DNA of 64,000 bases from Deltaproteobacteria bacterium Ga0077550 (GCA_001464385.1 LNFB01000383.1:1-64000), one strand, 5' to 3'; shown: positions 35,396 to 46,085, counted from the first letter of the stretch. Notes: generated by a model from the letters alone, not told the origin. A program made the numbers and translations.

Positions 35396-35722
35396 ATGCC
35401 CGAACTCGATCTCGGCGAGCTCATGCGCCAGGCCCAGCAGATGCAGGAGACGATGGCGCACCTGCAGCGCTCCCTCGAAACGGTCGTCGTCGAGGGCTCC
35501 TCGGGCGCCGGCATGGTGAAGGCCAAGGCCACCGGTGGCCAACGGATCGTCTCGATCGAGATCGATCCGACCGCGCTCTCCGAGGACCGCGACATGGTCC
35601 AGGATCTGATCGTCGCCGCGGTCAACAACGCCCTCGATCGCGCGCGCGAGCTCGCCCAGGAGCGCATGTCGTCCATGATCCCCCCTGGCATGCTCCCACC
35701 GGGGACGATTCCGGGCCTGTGA
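35396..35722 (+). CDS. ybaB: YbaB/EbfC nucleoid-associated protein
   Basis: A 108-residue protein of the YbaB/EbfC family, small dimeric nucleoid-associated DNA-binding proteins. It has the family pattern LGELMRQAQQMQETMAHLQR, then VEGSSGAGMVKAKATGGQRI and SIEIDPTALSEDRDMVQDLI with VAAVNNALDRARELA. It sits between dnaX and recR, its conserved place. Its stop overlaps the recR GTG start, indicating translational coupling. Confidence 0.92.
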   Translation: MPELDLGELMRQAQQMQETMAHLQRSLETVVVEGSSGAGMVKAKATGGQRIVSIEIDPTALSEDRDMVQDLIVAAVNNALDRARELAQERMSSMIPPGMLPPGTIPGL

Positions 35723-36348
35723 GTGCCGCGACGGCCGACCCGCTGCAGCGGCTCGCCGCGCTGCTCTCGCGTCTGCCCGGCATCGGCGAGAAGTCGGCGA
35801 TGCGGCTCGCGCTCGCGCTGGTCCGCGCCGACCCGGAGTACATCCGCACACTGGCAGACGCGGTGGGCTCGGTGCACGAGACCCTGAAGCTGTGCCGGAC
35901 CTGCTGCGATCTCACCCCCTCCGAGATCTGCGCGCGCTGCAGCGACGCACGCCGCGATCGCACCACGATCTGCGTCGTGGCCCAGCCCCAGGATCGCATG
36001 GCCATCGATCGGGCCGGGATCTACCGCGGCCTCTACCACGTGCTGCACGGGGTGCTCGATCCGCTCGCCGGCGTGGGCCCGGCGGATCTGCACGTGGACG
36101 CGCTGCTGCGCCGGCTCGGGGCCAACGACGAGGACGCGGCGACCGGCCACGCGACCGTCCAGGAGATCATCGTCGCGACCAGCCCCAACGTCGAGGGGGA
36201 CGCGACGGCGCTGTACCTGTCGCGGTTGATCGCACCGCTGGGCGTCCGCGTCTCGCGGATTGCCTCGGGCGTCGCCGTGGGCGGCGAACTCGAGTACGCC
36301 GACGTCACCACGCTGCATCGCGCGCTGCAGGAGCGTCGCGTCCTGTGA
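35719..36348 (+). CDS. recR: Recombination mediator protein RecR
   Basis: A 209-residue RecR. The N-terminal helix-hairpin-helix (LLSRLPGIGEKSAMRLALAL) is followed by the four-Cys zinc finger (CRTCCDLTPSEICARC) and a Toprim domain (ICVVAQPQDRMAIDRAGIYR, LHGVLDPLAGVGP). The Walker B-like C-terminus ends in ELEYADVTTLHRALQERR. With RecF and RecO it loads RecA on gapped DNA. The GTG start at 35719 overlaps the ybaB stop by 4 bases. The length is standard. Confidence 0.95.
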   Translation: MSAATADPLQRLAALLSRLPGIGEKSAMRLALALVRADPEYIRTLADAVGSVHETLKLCRTCCDLTPSEICARCSDARRDRTTICVVAQPQDRMAIDRAGIYRGLYHVLHGVLDPLAGVGPADLHVDALLRRLGANDEDAATGHATVQEIIVATSPNVEGDATALYLSRLIAPLGVRVSRIASGVAVGGELEYADVTTLHRALQERRVL

Positions 36349-36505
36349 CGCGCGCTCGGACCGACGCCGCCCCCCCACACGCACGCCGGTCTTCGGCCCC
36401 AATTCGCGCAGGAAACCCCCGGGAGAGCCGGTGGACTTGCCCAGACGAGTTTGCTAGGTTCGCCGGGCTCCCGGAGCCTTCAACCCCCGAGGAGACCGCT
36501 TCGCA

Positions 36506-36985
36506 ATGCTCACGCCCCAACTCGTGATGTACGAGGACGAGGTTCGGCGGATCCAGTCCGTCGCCGATCGTCTGCAGCAAGACTCACGCTCGCGGGCGAT
36601 CCTCGTCGTGGACAAGAACGGCCAGCTGATCGCCGCCTCCGGCTCCGCGGCCGAGCTCGACACGACCTCGCTCAGCTCGCTGGTCGCCGGCAACGTCGCG
36701 GCCACGGGCGGCATCGCGAAGCTGATCGAAGAGGATGAGTTCACGGCGCAGTTCCACGAGGGCAAGGACGCCAGCGTGCACATGAGCCTCATCGGCCGAC
36801 GCATGATCCTCCTCGCGCTGTTCGACAAGAACACCACACTGGGGCTGGTGAAGTTGCGCGTGAAGAAGGCGAGCGTCGAGCTCGAGGCCATCCTCGAGGA
36901 CGTCGCGAAGAAGGCTCAGTCGCCGCAGCAGAGCGTCTTCGCCGAGATCACCGACGCCGACATCGACAACCTCTTCAACGACTGA
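36506..36985 (+). CDS. mglB: MglB, Roadblock/LC7 GTPase-activating protein
   Basis: A 159-residue Roadblock/LC7 protein starting [20 protein letters not shown]. In Myxococcus, MglB is the GAP for the small GTPase MglA and sets front-rear polarity during gliding; it has the same length there. Visible family elements are [34 protein letters not shown] and [17 protein letters not shown]. The C-terminal helix with [14 protein letters not shown] is also retained. A GAGGAG ribosome-binding site lies upstream, preceded by a GGCTCC/GGAGCC palindrome. It is followed by mglA after 29 bases. Confidence 0.92.
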
Positions 36986-37014
36986 AGGTCGTTCCCGCTC
37001 CCGACACGGCGCCA

Positions 37015-37602
37015 ATGTCCTTCATCAACTACAGCTCGCGCGAGATCAACTGCAAGCTCGTCTATTACGGTCCTGGTCTCTGCGGCAAGACCACCAACCT
37101 GCAGTACATCTACAACAAGACCAAGCCCGACGCGAAGGGCAAGATGATCTCGCTCGCGACGGAGACCGAGCGCACGCTGTTCTTCGACTTCCTGCCGCTG
37201 TCGCTGGGTGAGATCCGAGGGTTCCGCACCCGCTTCCATCTCTACACCGTGCCCGGCCAGGTGTTCTACGACGCGAGCCGCAAGCTCATCCTCAAGGGTG
37301 TCGATGGCGTGTGCTTCGTGGCGGACTCGCAGATGGAGCGCATGGAGGCCAACATCGAGAGCCTCGAGAACCTGCGCGACAACCTGACCGAGCAGGGCTA
37401 CGACCTCGACAAGCTGCCGTACGTGGTCCAGTACAACAAGCGCGACCTGCCGTCGGTCGTGCCGCTCGAGGAGCTCGCCGAGGTGTTGAACCCGACGAAG
37501 GTGCCCGAGTTCGAGGCGGTCGCGACGACCGGCATCGGCGTGTTCGATACGCTGAAGGCGCTGGCGAAGCAGGTGCTGACCGAGCTGCGCAAGGGCGGCT
37601 GA
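37015..37602 (+). CDS. mglA: MglA, polarity-determining small GTPase
   Basis: A 195-residue Ras-like GTPase starting [21 protein letters not shown]-loop GPGLCGKT spans residues 19-26. The switch region [20 protein letters not shown] has TVPGQ instead of the Ras-type DTAGQ, a hallmark of MglA. NKRD provides base specificity. Length and sequence outline match Myxococcus MglA, which with MglB governs gliding motility, pilus polarity and reversals. The adjacent mglB and this gene form an operon. Confidence 0.95.
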
Positions 37603-37617: not shown

Positions 37618-39315
37618 TCAGCCCTTCTTGGGCTCGACGGCCACCGGCGGCGGCACGTCGCCGAGCAGATCGTCCCAGCCGCTGGCATCGATCGCCGGAG
37701 CCGCGGAGTTCGACGCGGCGACCGGAGGCGCGGCGATCGTCGGGGGTGCGGCGATCGTCGGGGGTGCGGCGATCGTCGGAGGCGCCGCGATCGTCGGAGG
37801 CGCCGCGATCGTCGGAGGCGCCGCGACGGGCGTCCCCGACGGCGGCGGCATCGGTGGCGGCATGAACGTCGGCGTGGGACCGGCAGCGGCCTCGATACGC
37901 GCGCGCGCAGCCTCCTCCTCGGCACGACGGCGGGCTGCGGCGGCCGCCTCGTCGGTGCGACGCGCCGCAGCGGCCGCCTCCGCTTCGGCACGGCGCCGCG
38001 CGGCCGCTTCGTCCTCCGCGGCCCGCCGCTGCGCCGCGGCGTCCTCCTCGGCACGGCGTCGCACCTCGGCGTCCGCGCGCTGCTTCGCCTCCGCCTCCGC
38101 GCGCTGCTTCGCCTCCGCCTCCGCGCGCTGCTTCGCCTCCGCCTCCGCGCGCTGCTTCGACTCCGCCTCCGCGCGCTGCTTCGCCTCCGCCTCCGCGCGC
38201 TGCTTCGCCTCCGCCTCCGCGCGCTGCTTCGCTTCCGCCTCCGCGCGCTGCTTCGACTCCGCCTCCGCGCGCTGCTTCGACTCCGCCTCCGCGCGCTGCT
38301 TCGCCTCCGCCTCCGCGCGCTGCTTCGACTCCGCCTCCGCGCTCGGCTTGTCGTCGCGTCGCTTCTCGCGACGCTCCTTGCGGCGGTCTCGCTTCTTCTC
38401 GCTGCGCTTGTCGCTGCGCGCCTCCGCGGCGGGGGCCGTGCGCGCGGCGGTGGTGCGCGCCGCCTGCTCGGCCGCGGCGCGGGCCTTGCGTTCGCGCTTC
38501 TCCGCCGCCTCGATCGCGGGGCGCAGGGTCTTGCGCGCGCGCTTGATGAGCTCGGCCGCGAGCTCGTCGCGCTCCGCCTCCTCGCCGGCCTGCGCCGCCT
38601 CGAGGATCGGCAACGCCTCCGCCGGCGCATCCGACCGCGCGATCGCGAGGGCGAGACCCGCGAGCACGCGCGGGTGACCGCCGAGCTGCTCGCGCGCCGC
38701 CTCGAGTTGAGCACGCGCCGCGGTCGAGCGACCCGCCTCCTCGAGCAGCGCGACGCCGAGGTCGAGTCGATCGCGCGGCGAGAGCACGCCCTTGCCGTCG
38801 AGCGTGGCGAGCAGCGCCCGCGCGTCCTTGCGATCGCCCGCGAGGAGCAGACCGTGCGCCTGGCCACTCACCAACGCCGGCAGCTCGGTCTGGCCGCTGA
38901 TCCGCGCGCAGTCGGCGAAGGCCTTCGCCGCCGCCCGGCCGTTGCCGAGCACGAGGTGCAACCGCCCGCGCTGCAGGGCGACCCACGCGTGGGGCGCGAA
39001 CAACGTCACGATCCGCTGCTTGTCGAGCGCCCCGAGCCACTTCGACGCGCCCGCTCGGTTCGACGCGGCGATGGTGACGCCCATCGCCTCGAGTCGCCGA
39101 TCCATCAGCGGTTGCAGGCCCAGGAGGACCGCGACGCCCGAGACGATGAACACGATGCGCGTCACCGGCTCGGCGATCGCCAGGCCGAGCATCAGGAACA
39201 CGGCCGCGAAGCCGAACCGCAGCAGCGTCCCGCCGAGCGGTCGTCCGCCGCGGGTCCATACCGAGCGCTCGACATCGACGTCGAGCAGGTCACCACGGCG
39301 CGAGAGGGCCGACAC
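37618..39315 (-). CDS. Membrane protein with TPR-like region and long charged coiled coil
   Basis: A 565-residue protein with four parts. Two membrane helices near residues 30-70 (FGFAAVFLMLGLAIAE, IVFIVSGVAVLLGLQP) come first. A helical repeat region to about 235 (HAWVALQRGRLHLVLGNGRA, AAKAFADCARISG) resembles TPRs. A Lys/Arg/Glu-rich coiled coil includes eleven 8-residue AEAExKQR repeats. The C-terminus has PPTIAA repeats and ends WDDLLGDVPPP. It is convergent with mglA (16 bases apart). It recalls TolA-like or cytoskeletal bridging proteins, but I find no defining domain. Confidence 0.65.
   Translation of the reverse strand: MSALSRRGDLLDVDVERSVWTRGGRPLGGTLLRFGFAAVFLMLGLAIAEPVTRIVFIVSGVAVLLGLQPLMDRRLEAMGVTIAASNRAGASKWLGALDKQRIVTLFAPHAWVALQRGRLHLVLGNGRAAAKAFADCARISGQTELPALVSGQAHGLLLAGDRKDARALLATLDGKGVLSPRDRLDLGVALLEEAGRSTAARAQLEAAREQLGGHPRVLAGLALAIARSDAPAEALPILEAAQAGEEAERDELAAELIKRARKTLRPAIEAAEKRERKARAAAEQAARTTAARTAPAAEARSDKRSEKKRDRRKERREKRRDDKPSAEAESKQRAEAEAKQRAEAESKQRAEAESKQRAEAEAKQRAEAEAKQRAEAEAKQRAEAESKQRAEAEAKQRAEAEAKQRAEAEAKQRADAEVRRRAEEDAAAQRRAAEDEAAARRRAEAEAAAAARRTDEAAAAARRRAEEEAARARIEAAAGPTPTFMPPPMPPPSGTPVAAPPTIAAPPTIAAPPTIAAPPTIAAPPTIAAPPVAASNSAAPAIDASGWDDLLGDVPPPVAVEPKKG
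37726..37832 (-). repeat. 18-bp tandem repeats encoding PPTIAA
   Basis: About five to six copies of an 18-base unit (core GCGATCGTCGG[AG]GG) encode PPTIAA in the C-terminal part of the coiled-coil protein. Approximate ends. Confidence 0.85.
38077..38340 (-). repeat. 24-bp tandem repeats, 11 units, encoding AEAExKQR
   Basis: Eleven head-to-tail 24-base units vary mainly at one codon position (TCG[C/A]CTC, giving Ala or Ser). They encode an 8-residue charged helical repeat within a coiled coil. The DNA identity is higher than protein selection alone would need, so copy number may vary among strains. Confidence 0.95.
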
Positions 39316-39491: not shown

Positions 39492-40508
39492 GTGGTCCAC
39501 GTCGCGAGCGACGTCGCTGCGTTCCTTCACCGGCGCGAGGTCTCGGCGTACGAACAACGCCTGGCCCGCTCTGCCTACGCGTACGGGGTCGATCTGCGGC
39601 GATCGGCGTGGCTCGACGGGTCGCGCTTCGGCGACCCGATCATGCGCTCGATCGACCGCAACTGGAACGCGACGGTCGCCGACCTGACCGGCTCGATCCT
39701 CCAGGATGCCTCACGCTCCGCGCCGCTCGGGTTGATGGAGGACATCGCTCGGATCGCGCGGCTGCTCCGCGCACCGATGCCCGCGCTGCGGTTGTTGGTC
39801 CGCGGACTCGCGCCGACGCGGTGGCCGTTGGTCACCCCGCTGGGCACCACCAAGGGCGCCGTGCACTGGCTCGTCGTCGATGCCGAGCAGCTCGCCGCGC
39901 TGCCCGCCCACGAGCGCACGTTCCTGCTCGGCGCGGCGCTTGCCGACCTGCAGTGTGATCACGGTCCGATCTACGCCGCGCACCTGATGAGCGATCGATC
40001 GGAGCGCGGACTCGGCATGGTCCGGCTGTTGCTGCGACCGTGGTCGAACGTCGGCGTGTTCTCGGCGGATCGCGGCGGCCTCATCGCCTGCGGTGATCTC
40101 GACGCGGCTCGCTCGGCGATGCGCGCCCACGACGAGGTGGTCGCGCCCTGGCTCCCGCCGCGCCCCGCCCTCGCGCAACGCGAGCGCGCGCTCGCGGACT
40201 TCGATCGCTCGGCGACGATGGCTCGCCTGCGGCTGATGCTCGAGCGCCACCGTCAGGCCGATCGCGAGCCGACGCTCGTGCCGCCCGCCGCGCCGATGCC
40301 CGATCTCGAGGGTGCGGCGCCTTCGGACGACGCCGCGACGCCGCCTCCCGCCGAGGACGCGCCGCGTGATCCTTATCGTCGCGCGGCCGCGACGCCCGAG
40401 CCGAAGAAGCCCCCCGAGCGCGATGAAGAGATGGAGCGCGCCCTCGCCGGCGCGTGGTCGCTCGCGCGCTGCGATGCCCGCCTCACCCGGAGACTCGGAC
40501 TGCTGTGA
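39492..40508 (+). CDS. Inactive M48-like peptidase-fold protein, dynamin operon
   Basis: A 338-residue cytoplasmic-looking protein. Its middle resembles the M48 metallopeptidases found in myxobacteria: RSAYAYGVDL near the start, AVHWLVVDAEQLAALPAHE, then RTFLLGAALADLQCDHGPIY where active enzymes have LGHExxHIQxGHV, and VFSADRGGLIACGDLDAA where they have ExxADRAGLL. The HExxH equivalent is A148-A-L-A-D152, and the third ligand Glu is Val 189, so zinc catalysis should be lost. The C-terminus is Pro-rich then basic (ARCDARLTRRLGLL). GTG start at 39492. Its stop overlaps the start of the first dynamin-like GTPase, implying coupled translation and perhaps a complex. Confidence 0.6.
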   Translation: MVHVASDVAAFLHRREVSAYEQRLARSAYAYGVDLRRSAWLDGSRFGDPIMRSIDRNWNATVADLTGSILQDASRSAPLGLMEDIARIARLLRAPMPALRLLVRGLAPTRWPLVTPLGTTKGAVHWLVVDAEQLAALPAHERTFLLGAALADLQCDHGPIYAAHLMSDRSERGLGMVRLLLRPWSNVGVFSADRGGLIACGDLDAARSAMRAHDEVVAPWLPPRPALAQRERALADFDRSATMARLRLMLERHRQADREPTLVPPAAPMPDLEGAAPSDDAATPPPAEDAPRDPYRRAAATPEPKKPPERDEEMERALAGAWSLARCDARLTRRLGLL

Positions 40509-42403
40509 GCGCCGCCGATCCCAACTCTGTCGCGCCAGGGTCGGTCCCCGGCGCTGCCTCCGGGCCCACGGCCGCCGCGAACGACGGCTTCCTCGACGTC
40601 GGCACGCTCGCGCCGGTCGCCGCGCGACTCGCCGAGATCGCCGGCGAGCTCGGCCTGTCGGCGCTCGCCTCGATGATCGTCGACGACACCGCGCGGCGAC
40701 TCGAGCACGGCGTCGTGCGCGTGCTCGTGCTCGGCGAGATCAAGCAGGGCAAGAGCTCGCTGGTCAATGCGCTGCTCGGCCGCGAGGCCCTGCCCGTCGG
40801 CGTCACGCCGACGACGGGCGCCACCGTGATCGTCCGCGCCTCCGAAACGCCGGGCATGTGGTCGGTCGCCGAGGACGACACGCGTGAGCCGCTCGACGCC
40901 GCGAGCTTCGCGACGCGGGCCAAGGGCGCGCCGCGGGGCGAGGCGCCGCCGACCGGTCGACTCGAGCTGCACGTCGGGGCTGAGGTGATCCCCGTCGGCC
41001 TCGAGCTCGTCGACACGCCCGGCATCAATGACATCGCCAACTGGCGTGCGACGATCAGCCGCGGCGAGCTGCCGAGCGCCGACGTGCTGATCCTCGTGCT
41101 CGACGCGACGCAGCTCCTCAACCGCACCGAGATGGCGTTCCTGCGCGACGCCCTCGCGGCGGTCGGCGGCCTCGGCCGCTCCGGCGCGCGACTGGTGCTC
41201 GCCGTCAACCGCGTCGATCTCGTCGCGCCCAGCGATCGGCCGCTGCTCCGCGAGTACCTGACCAAGGAGCTCCACGCCCTCGTCGGCGACGCGATCGCGT
41301 CGAGCGACATCTTCGAGACCGAGGCCCGCGGCGCACTGCGCGAGCCGACCGCCGATCGCCACGGCATCGCCGAGGTCGCGCGCCTGCGGGCGCTGCTGTT
41401 CGAGCTCGCCGCCGGCCGACGCGACGTGCTGCCGACGCGCGCGCGGGCCAGCCTCGTCGGCCACGCCCGGTTGCTCGCCCACAACGCCGCGGTCGCAGCC
41501 CACGCCCTCGCCCTCGAGCAGGACGCGCTTCGCCGCGAGATCCGAACGCTCGAGCGCGAGTGGGAGGGCCATGAGCTCGACATGACCGCGGTGCGCGAGG
41601 CGATGACCAGCGCGCGCGCGCGGATCGTCTCCGCCAGCGGCGAGCGCATCGAGGCCTTCCGCAGCCAGTTGCAGGCGAGCGCCGCGTCGGCGATCAACAT
41701 CGCCAGCCAGCGCGTGCTCGCCAGCCACCTGCCCGGCGCGCTGCACGACGCGATGCTCGCGTTCGCGGCCGAGGAGAGCACGCGGCTGCACGGCGAGCTC
41801 GACGATCTCACGCAGCAGGCGATCCACACCCACTCCGAGCACGTGCGGCGCTTGCTGGCCTTCGCGACGCTGCGCCTCGGCTTCCGCGGGCCGACGATCT
41901 ACCTCGACCCACCGTCGGTGGGCCTCGAGGTCGGGATGATCGCGATCGGCCTGGTCGGCACCGCGGTGATGTACTTCGGCAACCTCGTCGCCGGCATGGT
42001 CATGACCGTCGCCGGGCCGCTGGCCACCGTCGTCCTGCGCGAGCGATCGCTGCGCGACGCCCGGGCCCGCGCCCGCGAGGAGCTCCCGCTGGCCCTCGAT
42101 CGCGCGAGCTCGGCGCTGTCCGAGGCCATCGCGCGCACCGTCGATCAACACGTCGGCGCGCTCGACGAGCACCTCGTCCTCGCCAACCGTGCGATCGCCG
42201 AGCAGCTCGCCGCCGTGCTGCGCCGCGCCCAGGCCTCGCTCACCGTCGACGACGCGCCCAGCACCACCGAGGTGGTCGCGTCGCGGCGCACGCGAGCGCA
42301 GCTGCGACTGCACGGGCTCGAGGTCGAGCTGTCGCAGATCTCCGCGGCCCTGGTCGCCGACGATGCGCCCGACGACGACGACGACGCTGCCGTCGCGCAG
42401 TGA
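40505..42403 (+). CDS. Dynamin-like GTPase (bacterial DLP), first of pair
   Basis: A 632-residue large GTPase of the dynamin-like family. G1 is GEIKQGKSS (77-85), G2 TPTTGAT (101-107), G3 VDTPGINDI, and G4 VNRVDL. Long helical regions follow (residues 300-480), as in the stalk. A hydrophobic hairpin (VGMIAIGLVGTAVMYFGNLV, AGMVMTVAGPLATVVL) lies near residues 480-520 and should insert in membrane, as the paddle of bacterial DLPs does. An acidic tail ends it. GTG start at 40505 overlaps the preceding stop. Bacterial DLPs often occur as unequal pairs that act together on membranes; a second DLP follows 26 bases on. Confidence 0.85.
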   Translation: MSAADPNSVAPGSVPGAASGPTAAANDGFLDVGTLAPVAARLAEIAGELGLSALASMIVDDTARRLEHGVVRVLVLGEIKQGKSSLVNALLGREALPVGVTPTTGATVIVRASETPGMWSVAEDDTREPLDAASFATRAKGAPRGEAPPTGRLELHVGAEVIPVGLELVDTPGINDIANWRATISRGELPSADVLILVLDATQLLNRTEMAFLRDALAAVGGLGRSGARLVLAVNRVDLVAPSDRPLLREYLTKELHALVGDAIASSDIFETEARGALREPTADRHGIAEVARLRALLFELAAGRRDVLPTRARASLVGHARLLAHNAAVAAHALALEQDALRREIRTLEREWEGHELDMTAVREAMTSARARIVSASGERIEAFRSQLQASAASAINIASQRVLASHLPGALHDAMLAFAAEESTRLHGELDDLTQQAIHTHSEHVRRLLAFATLRLGFRGPTIYLDPPSVGLEVGMIAIGLVGTAVMYFGNLVAGMVMTVAGPLATVVLRERSLRDARARAREELPLALDRASSALSEAIARTVDQHVGALDEHLVLANRAIAEQLAAVLRRAQASLTVDDAPSTTEVVASRRTRAQLRLHGLEVELSQISAALVADDAPDDDDDAAVAQ

Positions 42404-42429
42404 CGCGGTGCTCGGGTAGACTCACCGCG

Positions 42430-45400
42430 ATGAGTCAGGATCCGCCCGGTCGCAAGCGCACGGTTGGCGACGCACTCGGGGGCTTCGCCCGGCGCGTCGG
42501 AGAGTTGATCGGCGAGGTCTCGGGCGCCGTCACGACGCCCGACGGTCTGCGCGAGCCCCTCGATCGCGCCCGCGCGCTGCGGTTGGGCGCTGCACCCGAC
42601 GCGGCGCTGGGAATCCTGCGCAGCGTCCCCGAGGCGCTGCTCACCCATCCGATGACGCGATTCTCCGTCGGGCTCTGCCACGTGCACGACGGCCTGCTCG
42701 GCGGCCGACCGATCCGCGCGCTGACCGAGGTGATCGACGAGCTCGGCGAGCAGCTCGGGCCGGGACCACTGCAGCTGCTCCGCGCCGCGCATGCCGAGTT
42801 CGAGGGTCGCCACGAGGCCGCGCTCGACGATCTGCGACGCGCCGCCCGCGATCTCGGTCGGCTCGCCGACGCGGAGCTCGGCGAGGCGCGGTTCCTCATC
42901 CATCTGCTCGCCGCCCTCGCACACTTCGCGCTCGGAGCCGAGGACCGCACGCTCCGCGAACTCCGCAAGGCGAAGACGCGGCTGCCGCCCGAGGCCGGCG
43001 TCGCGCTGCGTCACATGGTGCTCGTGCGCGGCGTCGAGCACCTGCTCGCCGCCGACGTGCTCGACGACGCGCTGGCGTGGGTGCGCGAGGCATTGGCGCT
43101 GGATCCCCACGATCGCGACGCCGGCGAGCTGCTCGTGCGCGTGCTCGCCAGCAAGGGCGATCGTGCCGCGGCGCTCGCCGAGCTCGCGCGCTTCGATCAG
43201 GACGATCCGGAGCTCGATCGCACGCGACTCTGGGTCGAGCTCACCGTCGGTGCCCCCGGCGTCGACGCGCGCGCGCTGTCGCTGCGGGTGCTGCAGCGCT
43301 CGCCCGAGGACCACGCGTTGCGTCGCCTGTGGGCGCTGGCCGAGCTGCGCCGCGCTGCCGCCCACGCCGAAGAGACCATCGATCCGGTGATCCGACGCGA
43401 GCTCGTCGAGGCGCTCGCGCGGGCCTGCGACGACGCGCCGAAGGCCGCCCGCGATCGACACCTGCACGAGCTCGCCCACGCCGCGCTCCGCCTGGAGTGG
43501 TTCCCCGATTCGGTGCGCACGCTGGTGCTCGCGCGGCTGCGCGCCGACGAGGGCACCGCGCCCGAGGAGCTCCGGTTGCTGCGGGCGCGCATGCGGCTCT
43601 CCGCGAAGGACCCCGCCGACGCGGCCGGCGACTTCGTGCCGGGTGATCCGCCGCGCTTCCGCGCCGACGCGGATCTCGGCGGCGGCTTCGGGCCCGATCC
43701 GATGAGCCCGGTTCGCAGCGACGACACCCGCATCGCGCTGCTCTGTGCGCAGCGCGACCTCGCAGCCGCCGAGCTGTGCCTGCTGCGCGGCGACAGCAAC
43801 GCGGCCCAGGATCTCCTCGTCAGCGCGCTGGTCGAGTGGCCGGGCCTGCCGCGCGCGCGCGAGCTGCTGGCGTCGCTGGTCCACACGCCGTCGCAGTCGC
43901 GACTCGAGGATCTGCTCGCCAGCGCGACCGCTCTACTCGCCGCGATCCCGAACCGGGTGATGGGGCTGCCGATGGATGGCGTCGGCGAGGCCCTGTCGCA
44001 GGTGATCGCGGCCCGCGAACGCATGGTCCGTCCGCTGACGATCGCGATCATGGGCGAGTTCTCCGCGGGCAAGAGCACCTTCGTCAACGCGCTGCTCGCC
44101 GAGGCGGTCGCGCCGATGGGCGTGCTGCCGACGACGACGACGATCAACGTCTTCCGCCGCGGGCCCTCGAGTGGCGCTCGTGTCCACTACCGCGACGGCC
44201 ACATCGAGACGCTCGGCGCCGACGAGGTGCAGAAGTTCCTGCACGGACTCGACAGCACGGCTGCGGCGACGATCCGCCACGTCGAGATCGAGCGGGTCGG
44301 CGCGCGGATGGGCGATGCCGCGGTCGTCGACACGCCCGGGCTCAACGCGCTCGACGCGTTCCACGAGCAGGTCGCCCGCGGCTTCATCGACGAGGCCGAC
44401 GCCGTGGTGTGGCTGTTCTCGGCGACGCGCAGCGGCGCGGCCTCCGAGGTCGGGATGCTCGCGAGCCTCCGCGCCGGTGGTCGTCGTGTGCTCGGCGTGC
44501 TCAACAAGGTCGATACCCTCGACGCCGCGGAGCAGCAGGAGCTCGCGAGCTACCTGCGCGAGCAACTCGGCGAGGTGCTGGTCGAGGTGGTGCCGCTGCG
44601 TGCCCGCGCCGCGCTCGAGTTCCGCACCGACACTTCACGCTCGGCGGCGCATGGGGCGACCGGCGACGATCCGTTCCTCGCGGTCGAGACGGCGCTCGAG
44701 CGCCACTTTCTCACGCGCGCCCGCGAGCTCAAGCGCGAGCTGACGCTACGACGACTCGGCGAGGCGCTGGTCACCGCGCGCAGCACCGTGCTCGCCACGA
44801 TCGACGCGCTGTCGGCCCGGGCCCACGCCGCCGCCGGCGACGACGACCGCGGGCGCGCGAGCGTACCCACGGTGCTCGGCCGCTTCGCCGATGCCCTCGT
44901 CGCGGGGCTGCTCGACATCGATGACATCCTCGTGCGCGAGGGCCTGTCGCTCGGCGTGCTCCGGGGTAGCAAGGCGACGCCCAAGGTCGCCCTCGATCCG
45001 CAGGACGCGGAGTACCTCGCGGCCTGCTTCCGCGACAGCGCACTCGCGGTGCTGCAGCGCGCGCTGGTCGAGCTCGTGCGTGACGACGCCGCGGCGAGCG
45101 AGGTGCTGGATCGCGAGTTCGTCTCGTGGGCCTCGGGGCACCTCGAGGGCCTGGTCGCCGCCGGATTCCTGCAGCGCGCCGTCGCGGCCGGCAGCGCGGC
45201 GATCTCCCAGGGCGAGGCGGGCGCACGCGAGGCGTTCCGCGACGCGCTCGCGCCGTTGTCCGCGGCATGGGCCGCGCGCGCGCGCAGCCTGGTGCGAGCG
45301 ATCGAACGCACGCGGGCCCGCGCGGGTCGTCACGCCCGCAGCGCGCCCGAGGCCGAGGCGCTGCGCCTGCGCGCCACCGTGCTCGCGTCGATCGACGCCC

Positions 45401-45432
45401 TCGCGCACGCCGTGGGGGAGCTGCCCCCGTGA
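42430..45432 (+). CDS. Large dynamin-like GTPase with N-terminal TPR-type region, second of pair
   Basis: A 1000-residue protein. The first 500 residues are helical repeats of TPR type (LGAAPDAALGILRSVPEALL, DALAWVREALALDPHDRDAG). The GTPase domain follows: G1 GEFSAGKST (residues 542-550), GVLPTTTTINVF as G2, VVDTPGLNAL as G3, and LNKVDTLD as G4. About 250 residues of helical stalk-like sequence close the protein, ending in an Arg-rich segment. No obvious membrane hairpin is present, in contrast to its partner, so this may be the soluble subunit of a hetero-oligomeric DLP. Start ATG 42430. Its stop overlaps the rnhB start by 4 bases. Confidence 0.8.
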   Translation: MSQDPPGRKRTVGDALGGFARRVGELIGEVSGAVTTPDGLREPLDRARALRLGAAPDAALGILRSVPEALLTHPMTRFSVGLCHVHDGLLGGRPIRALTEVIDELGEQLGPGPLQLLRAAHAEFEGRHEAALDDLRRAARDLGRLADAELGEARFLIHLLAALAHFALGAEDRTLRELRKAKTRLPPEAGVALRHMVLVRGVEHLLAADVLDDALAWVREALALDPHDRDAGELLVRVLASKGDRAAALAELARFDQDDPELDRTRLWVELTVGAPGVDARALSLRVLQRSPEDHALRRLWALAELRRAAAHAEETIDPVIRRELVEALARACDDAPKAARDRHLHELAHAALRLEWFPDSVRTLVLARLRADEGTAPEELRLLRARMRLSAKDPADAAGDFVPGDPPRFRADADLGGGFGPDPMSPVRSDDTRIALLCAQRDLAAAELCLLRGDSNAAQDLLVSALVEWPGLPRARELLASLVHTPSQSRLEDLLASATALLAAIPNRVMGLPMDGVGEALSQVIAARERMVRPLTIAIMGEFSAGKSTFVNALLAEAVAPMGVLPTTTTINVFRRGPSSGARVHYRDGHIETLGADEVQKFLHGLDSTAAATIRHVEIERVGARMGDAAVVDTPGLNALDAFHEQVARGFIDEADAVVWLFSATRSGAASEVGMLASLRAGGRRVLGVLNKVDTLDAAEQQELASYLREQLGEVLVEVVPLRARAALEFRTDTSRSAAHGATGDDPFLAVETALERHFLTRARELKRELTLRRLGEALVTARSTVLATIDALSARAHAAAGDDDRGRASVPTVLGRFADALVAGLLDIDDILVREGLSLGVLRGSKATPKVALDPQDAEYLAACFRDSALAVLQRALVELVRDDAAASEVLDREFVSWASGHLEGLVAAGFLQRAVAAGSAAISQGEAGAREAFRDALAPLSAAWAARARSLVRAIERTRARAGRHARSAPEAEALRLRATVLASIDALAHAVGELPP

Positions 45433-46085
45433 CGACCGCGATGCTCCGGGTGTTCGGCGTCGACGAGGCCGGCCGCGGCCCGATCCTCGGGCCGATGGCG
45501 ATCGGCGTGGTCGCCCTCGATCGTCGCTGCGCGTCCGCACTGAAGCGCGCCGGCGTCGTCGACAGCAAGGACTTCGGCGCGGGACCCGACGCGTGGTCGC
45601 TCCGCGCCGAGCTCGCGGCGCTGATCGAGCGCAAGGCCGCCGCCTTCGCGGTGCGCCTCGTCGACGTCGACGAGATCGATCACTACACCTACCGCGGCCA
45701 GCTCAACGCGCTCGAGCGGCGCGTCGCCTGCGAGCTGCTACGCGAGCTCGGTGTCGGCGATCGCGAACGCATCGTGTGCGACGGACGAACGCTCTTCTCT
45801 CCGTTGCGCGCGCTGTTCCCCGCGCTCGAGGCGGTCGATCGCGGCGAGTCGGTGCACACCGCGGTGGCGGCCGCGTCGATCCTCGCCAAGCACGCACGTG
45901 ACACCGCGTTCGCGTCGATCGCCGCGCGCTACGAGCCCGAGTTCGGCCCGATCTCCGGCGGCGGTTACATCAACCCGGCGACCCGCCGCTTCCTCGACGC
46001 GTACGAGGCCAAGCACGGCGGCCTGCCGCCCGAGGCGCGCAAGAGCTGGGGCAGCAAGGGCGACGCGAACCTGTCGCTGCTCTGA
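45429..46085 (+). CDS. rnhB: Ribonuclease HII
   Basis: A 218-residue RNase HII, which cleaves RNA in RNA-DNA hybrids and removes misincorporated ribonucleotides. The signature VDEAGRGPILGP has catalytic Asp 12 and Glu 13. VDSKDFG, RIVCDGRTLF and HTAVAAASILAKHARD supply the other conserved segments, with the Asp of VCDG as a third metal ligand. GGYINPATRRFL is a C-terminal family element (usually GYPT). GTG start at 45429 overlaps the stop of the large dynamin-like gene by 4 bases, making it the last gene of that operon. Confidence 0.92.
   Translation: MTTAMLRVFGVDEAGRGPILGPMAIGVVALDRRCASALKRAGVVDSKDFGAGPDAWSLRAELAALIERKAAAFAVRLVDVDEIDHYTYRGQLNALERRVACELLRELGVGDRERIVCDGRTLFSPLRALFPALEAVDRGESVHTAVAAASILAKHARDTAFASIAARYEPEFGPISGGGYINPATRRFLDAYEAKHGGLPPEARKSWGSKGDANLSLL

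Follow-up and report, generated by a model that had tools for sequence, protein, structure and literature searches.

An M48 peptidase homologue that has lost its catalytic site is encoded beside a pair of dynamin-like GTPases in a myxobacterial genome

The function and control of bacterial dynamins are poorly known. Their genes are usually paired in operons, and the proteins are thought to act as hetero-oligomers (PMC6104087). Cj-DLP1/2, IniA/IniC, and DynA/B from Streptomyces are pairs of this kind, in which two unequal dynamin-like genes are adjacent. Dynamin GTPases are also encoded in operons in the LeoABC system (as represented in PADLOC), for which we know of no M48 gene. In mitochondria, the dynamin OPA1 is a cleavage substrate of the M48 protease OMA1 (PMC8027119). 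Other M48 metallopeptidases (PF01435) include HtpX, Ste24, and BepA, and the site of this family combines an HExxH motif with a Glu as the third zinc ligand.

Here we describe a locus from a large myxobacterial genome (10.2 Mb in 400 contigs, ~70% G+C), that of Deltaproteobacteria bacterium Ga0077550. We analyzed a stretch of 64,000 nucleotides from this genome, which we will call the window. Four genes lie head to tail on its + strand, at positions 39492-46085. These genes and their main features are:

39492..40508, + strand: gene 1, M48 peptidase homologue of 338 aa, predicted to be inactive (profiles of orthologues from the order and class; AlphaFold2 pLDDT 89.6)
39933..39947, + strand: degenerate HExxH of gene 1, A148 A149 L150 A151 D152 (AALAD; from alignment, where class orthologues have GHExGHIQNxH)
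40056..40058, + strand: lost third zinc ligand of gene 1, V189 (from alignment, where orthologues have the Glu in RRAEITCDRAG)
40452..40505, + strand: C-terminal tail of gene 1, AWSLARCDARLTRRLGLL (RLTxRL), with W322, D328, R330-T332, and R334-L335 invariant in 21/21 order members
40505..42403, + strand: gene 2, dynamin-like GTPase of 632 aa with a putative membrane hairpin, GTG start (PF00350, 3.7e-19; best PDB relative IniA, 8.6e-14)
41915..42037, + strand: hydrophobic hairpin of gene 2, residues ~471-511 (two adjacent segments by hydropathy; GTAVMYFGN...MTVAGPLATV conserved in the order)
42430..45432, + strand: gene 3, dynamin-like GTPase of 1000 aa with a long TPR-type front end, ATG start (PF00350, 3.7e-21; model pLDDT 87.2)
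42541..43944, + strand: helical-repeat (TPR-type) front half of gene 3 (confident model and Foldseek; weak TPR_19 match)
44041..44511, + strand: GTPase domain of gene 3 (P-loop GEFSAGKST, PTTTT, DTPG, and NKVD all present)
45429..46085, + strand: gene 4, RNase HII of 218 aa (PF01351, 5.5e-23)

An earlier note, made from this DNA sequence alone, had described the genes as overlapping by 4 bases or lying 26 bases apart, and these are the junctions that we found. Genes 1 and 2 overlap at a GTGA, as do genes 3 and 4 (at 45429). Genes 2 and 3 are separated by 26 bases if gene 3 starts with the ATG at 42430. If it starts with an alternative GTG at 42400, then the protein would have 1010 aa and the two genes would overlap at a GTGA as well (42400-42403). 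Since genes 1 and 2 are side by side in every relative from the host's order that we checked, the four-gene arrangement is not due to chance. Synteny and conservation also rule out that genes 1-4 are chance open reading frames.

By itself, the gene 1 protein had no match in Pfam, NCBIfam, or PADLOC, and a scan of genome contigs with it found one near relative only. In the host's order (a sample of 29 genomes, all from one family), gene 1 was found in 27 genomes, including 19 of the 19 good ones, and the window's protein is 34-75% identical to the other order members. To judge from its genome sizes and from the mglB-mglA pair close to the locus, the order may be Nannocystales, in class Polyangia. 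We built a profile from an alignment of 21 order members and compared it to 241 genomes from the class. The profile matched orthologues from the class at 2.5e-19 and weaker, and the best matches outside the order were mostly in the same gene context. We compared 56 members of the gene 1 family to PF01435; 36 had a match, of which the strongest was at 1.9e-31. With the family profile, matches were obtained to the structures of HtpX (3cqb, 5.2e-10) and Ste24p (4il3, 4e-05). Many of the class orthologues have the complete M48 site, which reads GHExGHIQNxH and then RRAEITCDRAGLLC in a joint alignment. Because the close relatives of gene 1 grade continuously into intact M48 peptidases, it is derived from M48, as the earlier note had claimed. 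This assignment comes from sequence profiles and not from a fold search. The AlphaFold2 model is confident, with a sheet and then the motif helix, and Foldseek gave only weak matches to the PDB, with none below E = 0.001; these included the metallopeptidases BlaR1 (probability 0.57) and BepA (probability 0.44).

In the same alignment columns, the window's protein reads GAALADLQCDH and NVGVFSADRGG. Whereas many class orthologues share the full HExxH plus Glu site with M48 metallopeptidases, gene 1 of the window lacks both His and both Glu. This bears out the earlier reading of HExxH as AALAD (residues 148-152) and of the third ligand as Val (V189). We expect that zinc-dependent proteolysis is absent. 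An error in sequencing or assembly is ruled out as the explanation, as the site is dead in 21 of 21 order members. The two motifs also lie closer together in the window's protein than in its intact relatives, with a less hydrophobic segment between them.

Like OMA1 (PMC8027119), the product of gene 1 is an M48-type protein that is tied to what is predicted to be a membrane-bound dynamin. But OMA1 is active and lies on the intermembrane side, while the M48-type protein of the window is predicted to be inactive and has no strongly hydrophobic segment by hydropathy. With its catalytic site absent, it does not correspond to an active M48 protease that cleaves a dynamin. We mean this likeness as a parallel only and not as a claim of orthology, and the cleavage of the dynamin by intact relatives of gene 1 is hypothetical.

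Genes 2 and 3 both match the dynamin GTPase domain (PF00350) above its cut-off, and both keep the G1-G4 motifs (the P-loop, the Thr, DTPG, and N(K/R)xD). The nearest solved structure to gene 2 is IniA. Gene 2 had been described as a dynamin-like protein with a membrane hairpin, and at the level of sequence this stands: besides the match to PF00350, it has two adjacent hydrophobic segments, which form a candidate membrane paddle. Gene 3 had been described as a dynamin-like protein of 1000 residues that has a TPR-type front end but lacks a hairpin, with which PF00350, the structural model, Foldseek, and hydropathy all agree. No hydrophobic hairpin was found in gene 3, and no 19-residue sliding window exceeds 1.6 on the Kyte-Doolittle scale. 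By Foldseek, its model resembles IniA, BDLP, mitofusin, and Cj-DLP1/2, as well as TPR superhelices.

The window thus has two dynamin genes adjacent in one operon, as in a heterotypic pair. The two are unequal, as in Cj-DLP1/2, IniA/IniC, and DynA/B, and IniA and Cj-DLP are their best solved relatives. Unlike in these systems, one of the partners has a front end of ~470 TPR-type residues, and the pair carries a third gene that is derived from M48.

Genes 2 and 3 also match PADLOC's LeoBC model (5.8e-11 and 5.7e-16, respectively), and DynA from B. subtilis is reported to confer phage resistance at the population level (PMC8844932). The operon could then be a Leo-like or DynA-like system for envelope defence or against phage, with a sensor that is derived from a protease. 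We consider this quite improbable. Like LeoABC, the locus is an operon with dynamin GTPases, but the matches to the Leo profiles are weak and partial, instead of full-length matches together with the Leo gene set, and for gene 3 the match is to the shared GTPase domain. Furthermore, the module is near-universal in its order: it is present in every good genome, at one syntenic locus that is often near mglBA-recR. Defence systems, in contrast, are patchy and mobile.

In the window, recR, a roadblock/MglB-like gene, and mglA lie upstream of the dynamin operon (35719-37602, + strand), and this position is kept in many genomes from the order.

We surveyed the linkage of these genes in the host's order, its class, other families of the phylum, and a few plasmids; many of the genomes are drafts. 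Gene 1 precedes gene 2 in all 20 of the other order loci that we examined. Among the 19 loci where this could be assessed, gene 3 comes next in 17. In the class, gene 2 was found in 190 of 290 genomes. We fetched 78 class loci from outside the order, and gene 1 adjoins gene 2 in 76 of them. Gene 3 is linked in 25 of these loci (about one third), and RNase HII in fewer. At the two exceptions, L109 and L126, gene 2 is present without an adjoining gene 1, and the genome with L109 has gene 1 elsewhere (L079). Also, 16 of the 20 class genomes that are listed as lacking a match to gene 1 are listed as lacking a match to gene 2 as well. Outside the class, in families f39, f47, f58, and f67, gene 1 is upstream of the ortholog of gene 2 in most loci. 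Genes 1 and 2 keep together while their other neighbors change.

The core unit is the M48-type gene and the hairpin dynamin, and the TPR dynamin is linked in some lineages only. The earlier note had proposed that three genes are linked. For genes 1 and 2, the linkage is kept in relatives, but for gene 3 the proposal holds only in some lineages. The note had also placed RNase HII in the operon. Gene 4 is indeed present and overlaps gene 3, but it is a common and inconstant neighbor whose position varies among relatives. Because it is frequently but not constantly nearby, RNase HII probably does not belong to the machine.

At a locus from f51, a distant family of the phylum (L208:3742-11218), the gene order is dynamin, intact M48, dynamin, dynamin. 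This suggests that the association of M48 proteins with dynamins is older than the class. Outside Myxococcota, we found no such neighbor at four plasmid-borne relatives of M48 or at one plasmid-borne dynamin locus. The latter locus, on the Lysinibacillus plasmid pFN9B (L213), has three consecutive genes from the dynamin family and no M48 gene.

The divergent neighbor of gene 1 (37618-39315, - strand) encodes a protein with what look like membrane segments near its N-terminus. The protein also has a repeat region rich in Ala and Glu, which is encoded by a 24-bp tandem repeat (38064-38349, 11.9 copies, 95% match) and an 18-bp repeat (37723-37826). This gene adjoins gene 1 in nearly all of the order loci but did not appear in class loci L079-L098. 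It may be part of the module in the host's order.

Linkage by itself cannot distinguish co-regulation from binding. The M48-type protein might be a separate protein for the envelope or for quality control, which is co-regulated with the dynamins by co-transcription and never contacts them. After all, RNase HII is a housekeeping gene and is also often co-linked. We think that this is unlikely: gene 1 is tied to its place beside gene 2 far more strongly than to RNase HII or gene 3, and the pair persists outside the class. Also, positions beyond the catalytic site are conserved after catalysis was lost, which fits an interaction surface.

To describe the loss of the protease site, we scored the two His and the two Glu positions in 111 homologues of gene 1. 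The site is intact in 68, and at least one position is lost in 43. Thus, the full catalytic site is kept in most of the Myxococcota loci that we sampled. Dead sites are found in all 21 order members, in all sampled members of families f3, f16, and f67, in the only sampled member each of f2, f9, and f58, and in some members of f4, f12, and f20. We counted changes on a tree that was built from gene 2 and is free of the scored columns. There are at least 12 changes in the site (10 if three-of-four and truncated cases are set aside), or 14 losses if loss is irreversible; these counts are approximate, as this is a quick tree with some long branches. Many independent losses of the protease site are hard to avoid.

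A relationship between protease loss and linkage to gene 3 is a lead. In a clade without linked gene 3, gene 1 is intact in 41 of 41 loci, and many of the loci with linked gene 3 are dead. The simple rule that protease loss follows linkage to the TPR dynamin is unsupported, as the site is dead in families f58 and f67, where gene 3 is not linked. The relationship is also weakened by genomes that carry gene 3 unlinked, and independent pairs gave it no support in an underpowered sign test (median p = 1).

Residue 192, in the TCDR/TADR motif, is the Cys of TCDRAG in 65 of 68 intact homologues and Ala in most of the inactive ones. This change from Cys to Ala accompanies the loss of the catalytic site.

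In the order, purifying selection still acts on the dead gene 1: its pairwise dN/dS is 0.04-0.40, which is in the range of gene 2 (by the Nei-Gojobori method, which is approximate at this G+C). Many residues of the M48 scaffold are kept in the order (Y29, D34, L92, P97, H157, D193, R194, R230, F237, and D328), and there are new invariant residues that are specific to the order (C155, W40, P222, W322, R330-T332, and R334). Given the purifying selection, the kept scaffold, and the new invariants, gene 1 appears to be a retained pseudoenzyme and not a decaying gene, and it probably has a binding role. Its C-terminal tail is a candidate docking motif.

At residue 155 (39954-39956), all 21 order members have Cys, and all 68 intact relatives have Asn. 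This newly invariant Cys is near H157, which is itself invariant in the order, and position 152 is His in most of the order members. Hence, gene 1 might still encode an enzyme or a metal protein, whose site was rebuilt around C155 and H157. But the window's protein has Asp at the position of the second His and lacks the Glu base, and C155 may be structural. Also, we know of no M48 chemistry with a rebuilt set of residues of this type. We think that a rebuilt site is very improbable.

The best account, in our view, is that a protease turned into a non-catalytic adaptor, which binds and regulates the dynamins as part of a membrane-remodelling module. We give this a probability of roughly 0.55. 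The gene pair was kept in much of the phylum while the protease site was lost repeatedly, which suggests that gene 1 matters as a binding partner and not as an enzyme. On the other side, the fold matches of gene 1 are weak, and L109 and L126 do not have gene 1 adjoining gene 2. The M48 protein BepA has chaperone-like activity through its substrate-binding edge strand, but in the protease-dead E137Q variant the chaperone function is only partial (PMC8423444). Thus, an inactive M48 protein need not be a good chaperone.

If gene 1 does encode an adaptor, the products of genes 1-3 would form one membrane-remodelling module. The product of gene 2 would be the dynamin that inserts into the membrane, and the product of gene 3 would be its soluble partner, whose TPR front end would recruit another protein. 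Probably, the ancestral M48 protein was active, and its role was to bind, process, or remove the dynamin. In the host's order, catalysis would have been lost and gene 1 kept as a non-catalytic subunit, presumably for binding only. It may bind one or both dynamins directly, through the old substrate groove and the new conserved C-terminal tail, and it could control the assembly or stability of the dynamins. The complex would be cytoplasmic, with the M48-derived subunit attached to the dynamin machine on the membrane's inner side. The earlier note had raised the possibility of a complex for membrane remodelling or stress, and we likewise infer a protein complex with one of these roles.

In the open-access literature (most subscription papers are missing from it), we found no description of an M48 gene paired with a bacterial dynamin, which is weak evidence of novelty. 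M48 is also unmentioned in a review of inactive metallopeptidase homologues.

More broadly, the locus might represent a bacterial counterpart of OMA1-OPA1, in which an M48 protease acts throughout Myxococcota as the regulator of a dynamin pair and turned into a regulatory subunit without catalysis about ten or more times independently. This proposal is tentative, and we put it at somewhat under even odds. If it is true, then the same partner could be compared as an enzyme and as a pseudoenzyme. The M48-dynamin gene pair provides a named candidate for a regulator of bacterial dynamins, and the natural series of active and inactive forms would allow the roles of proteolysis and binding to be tested against each other.
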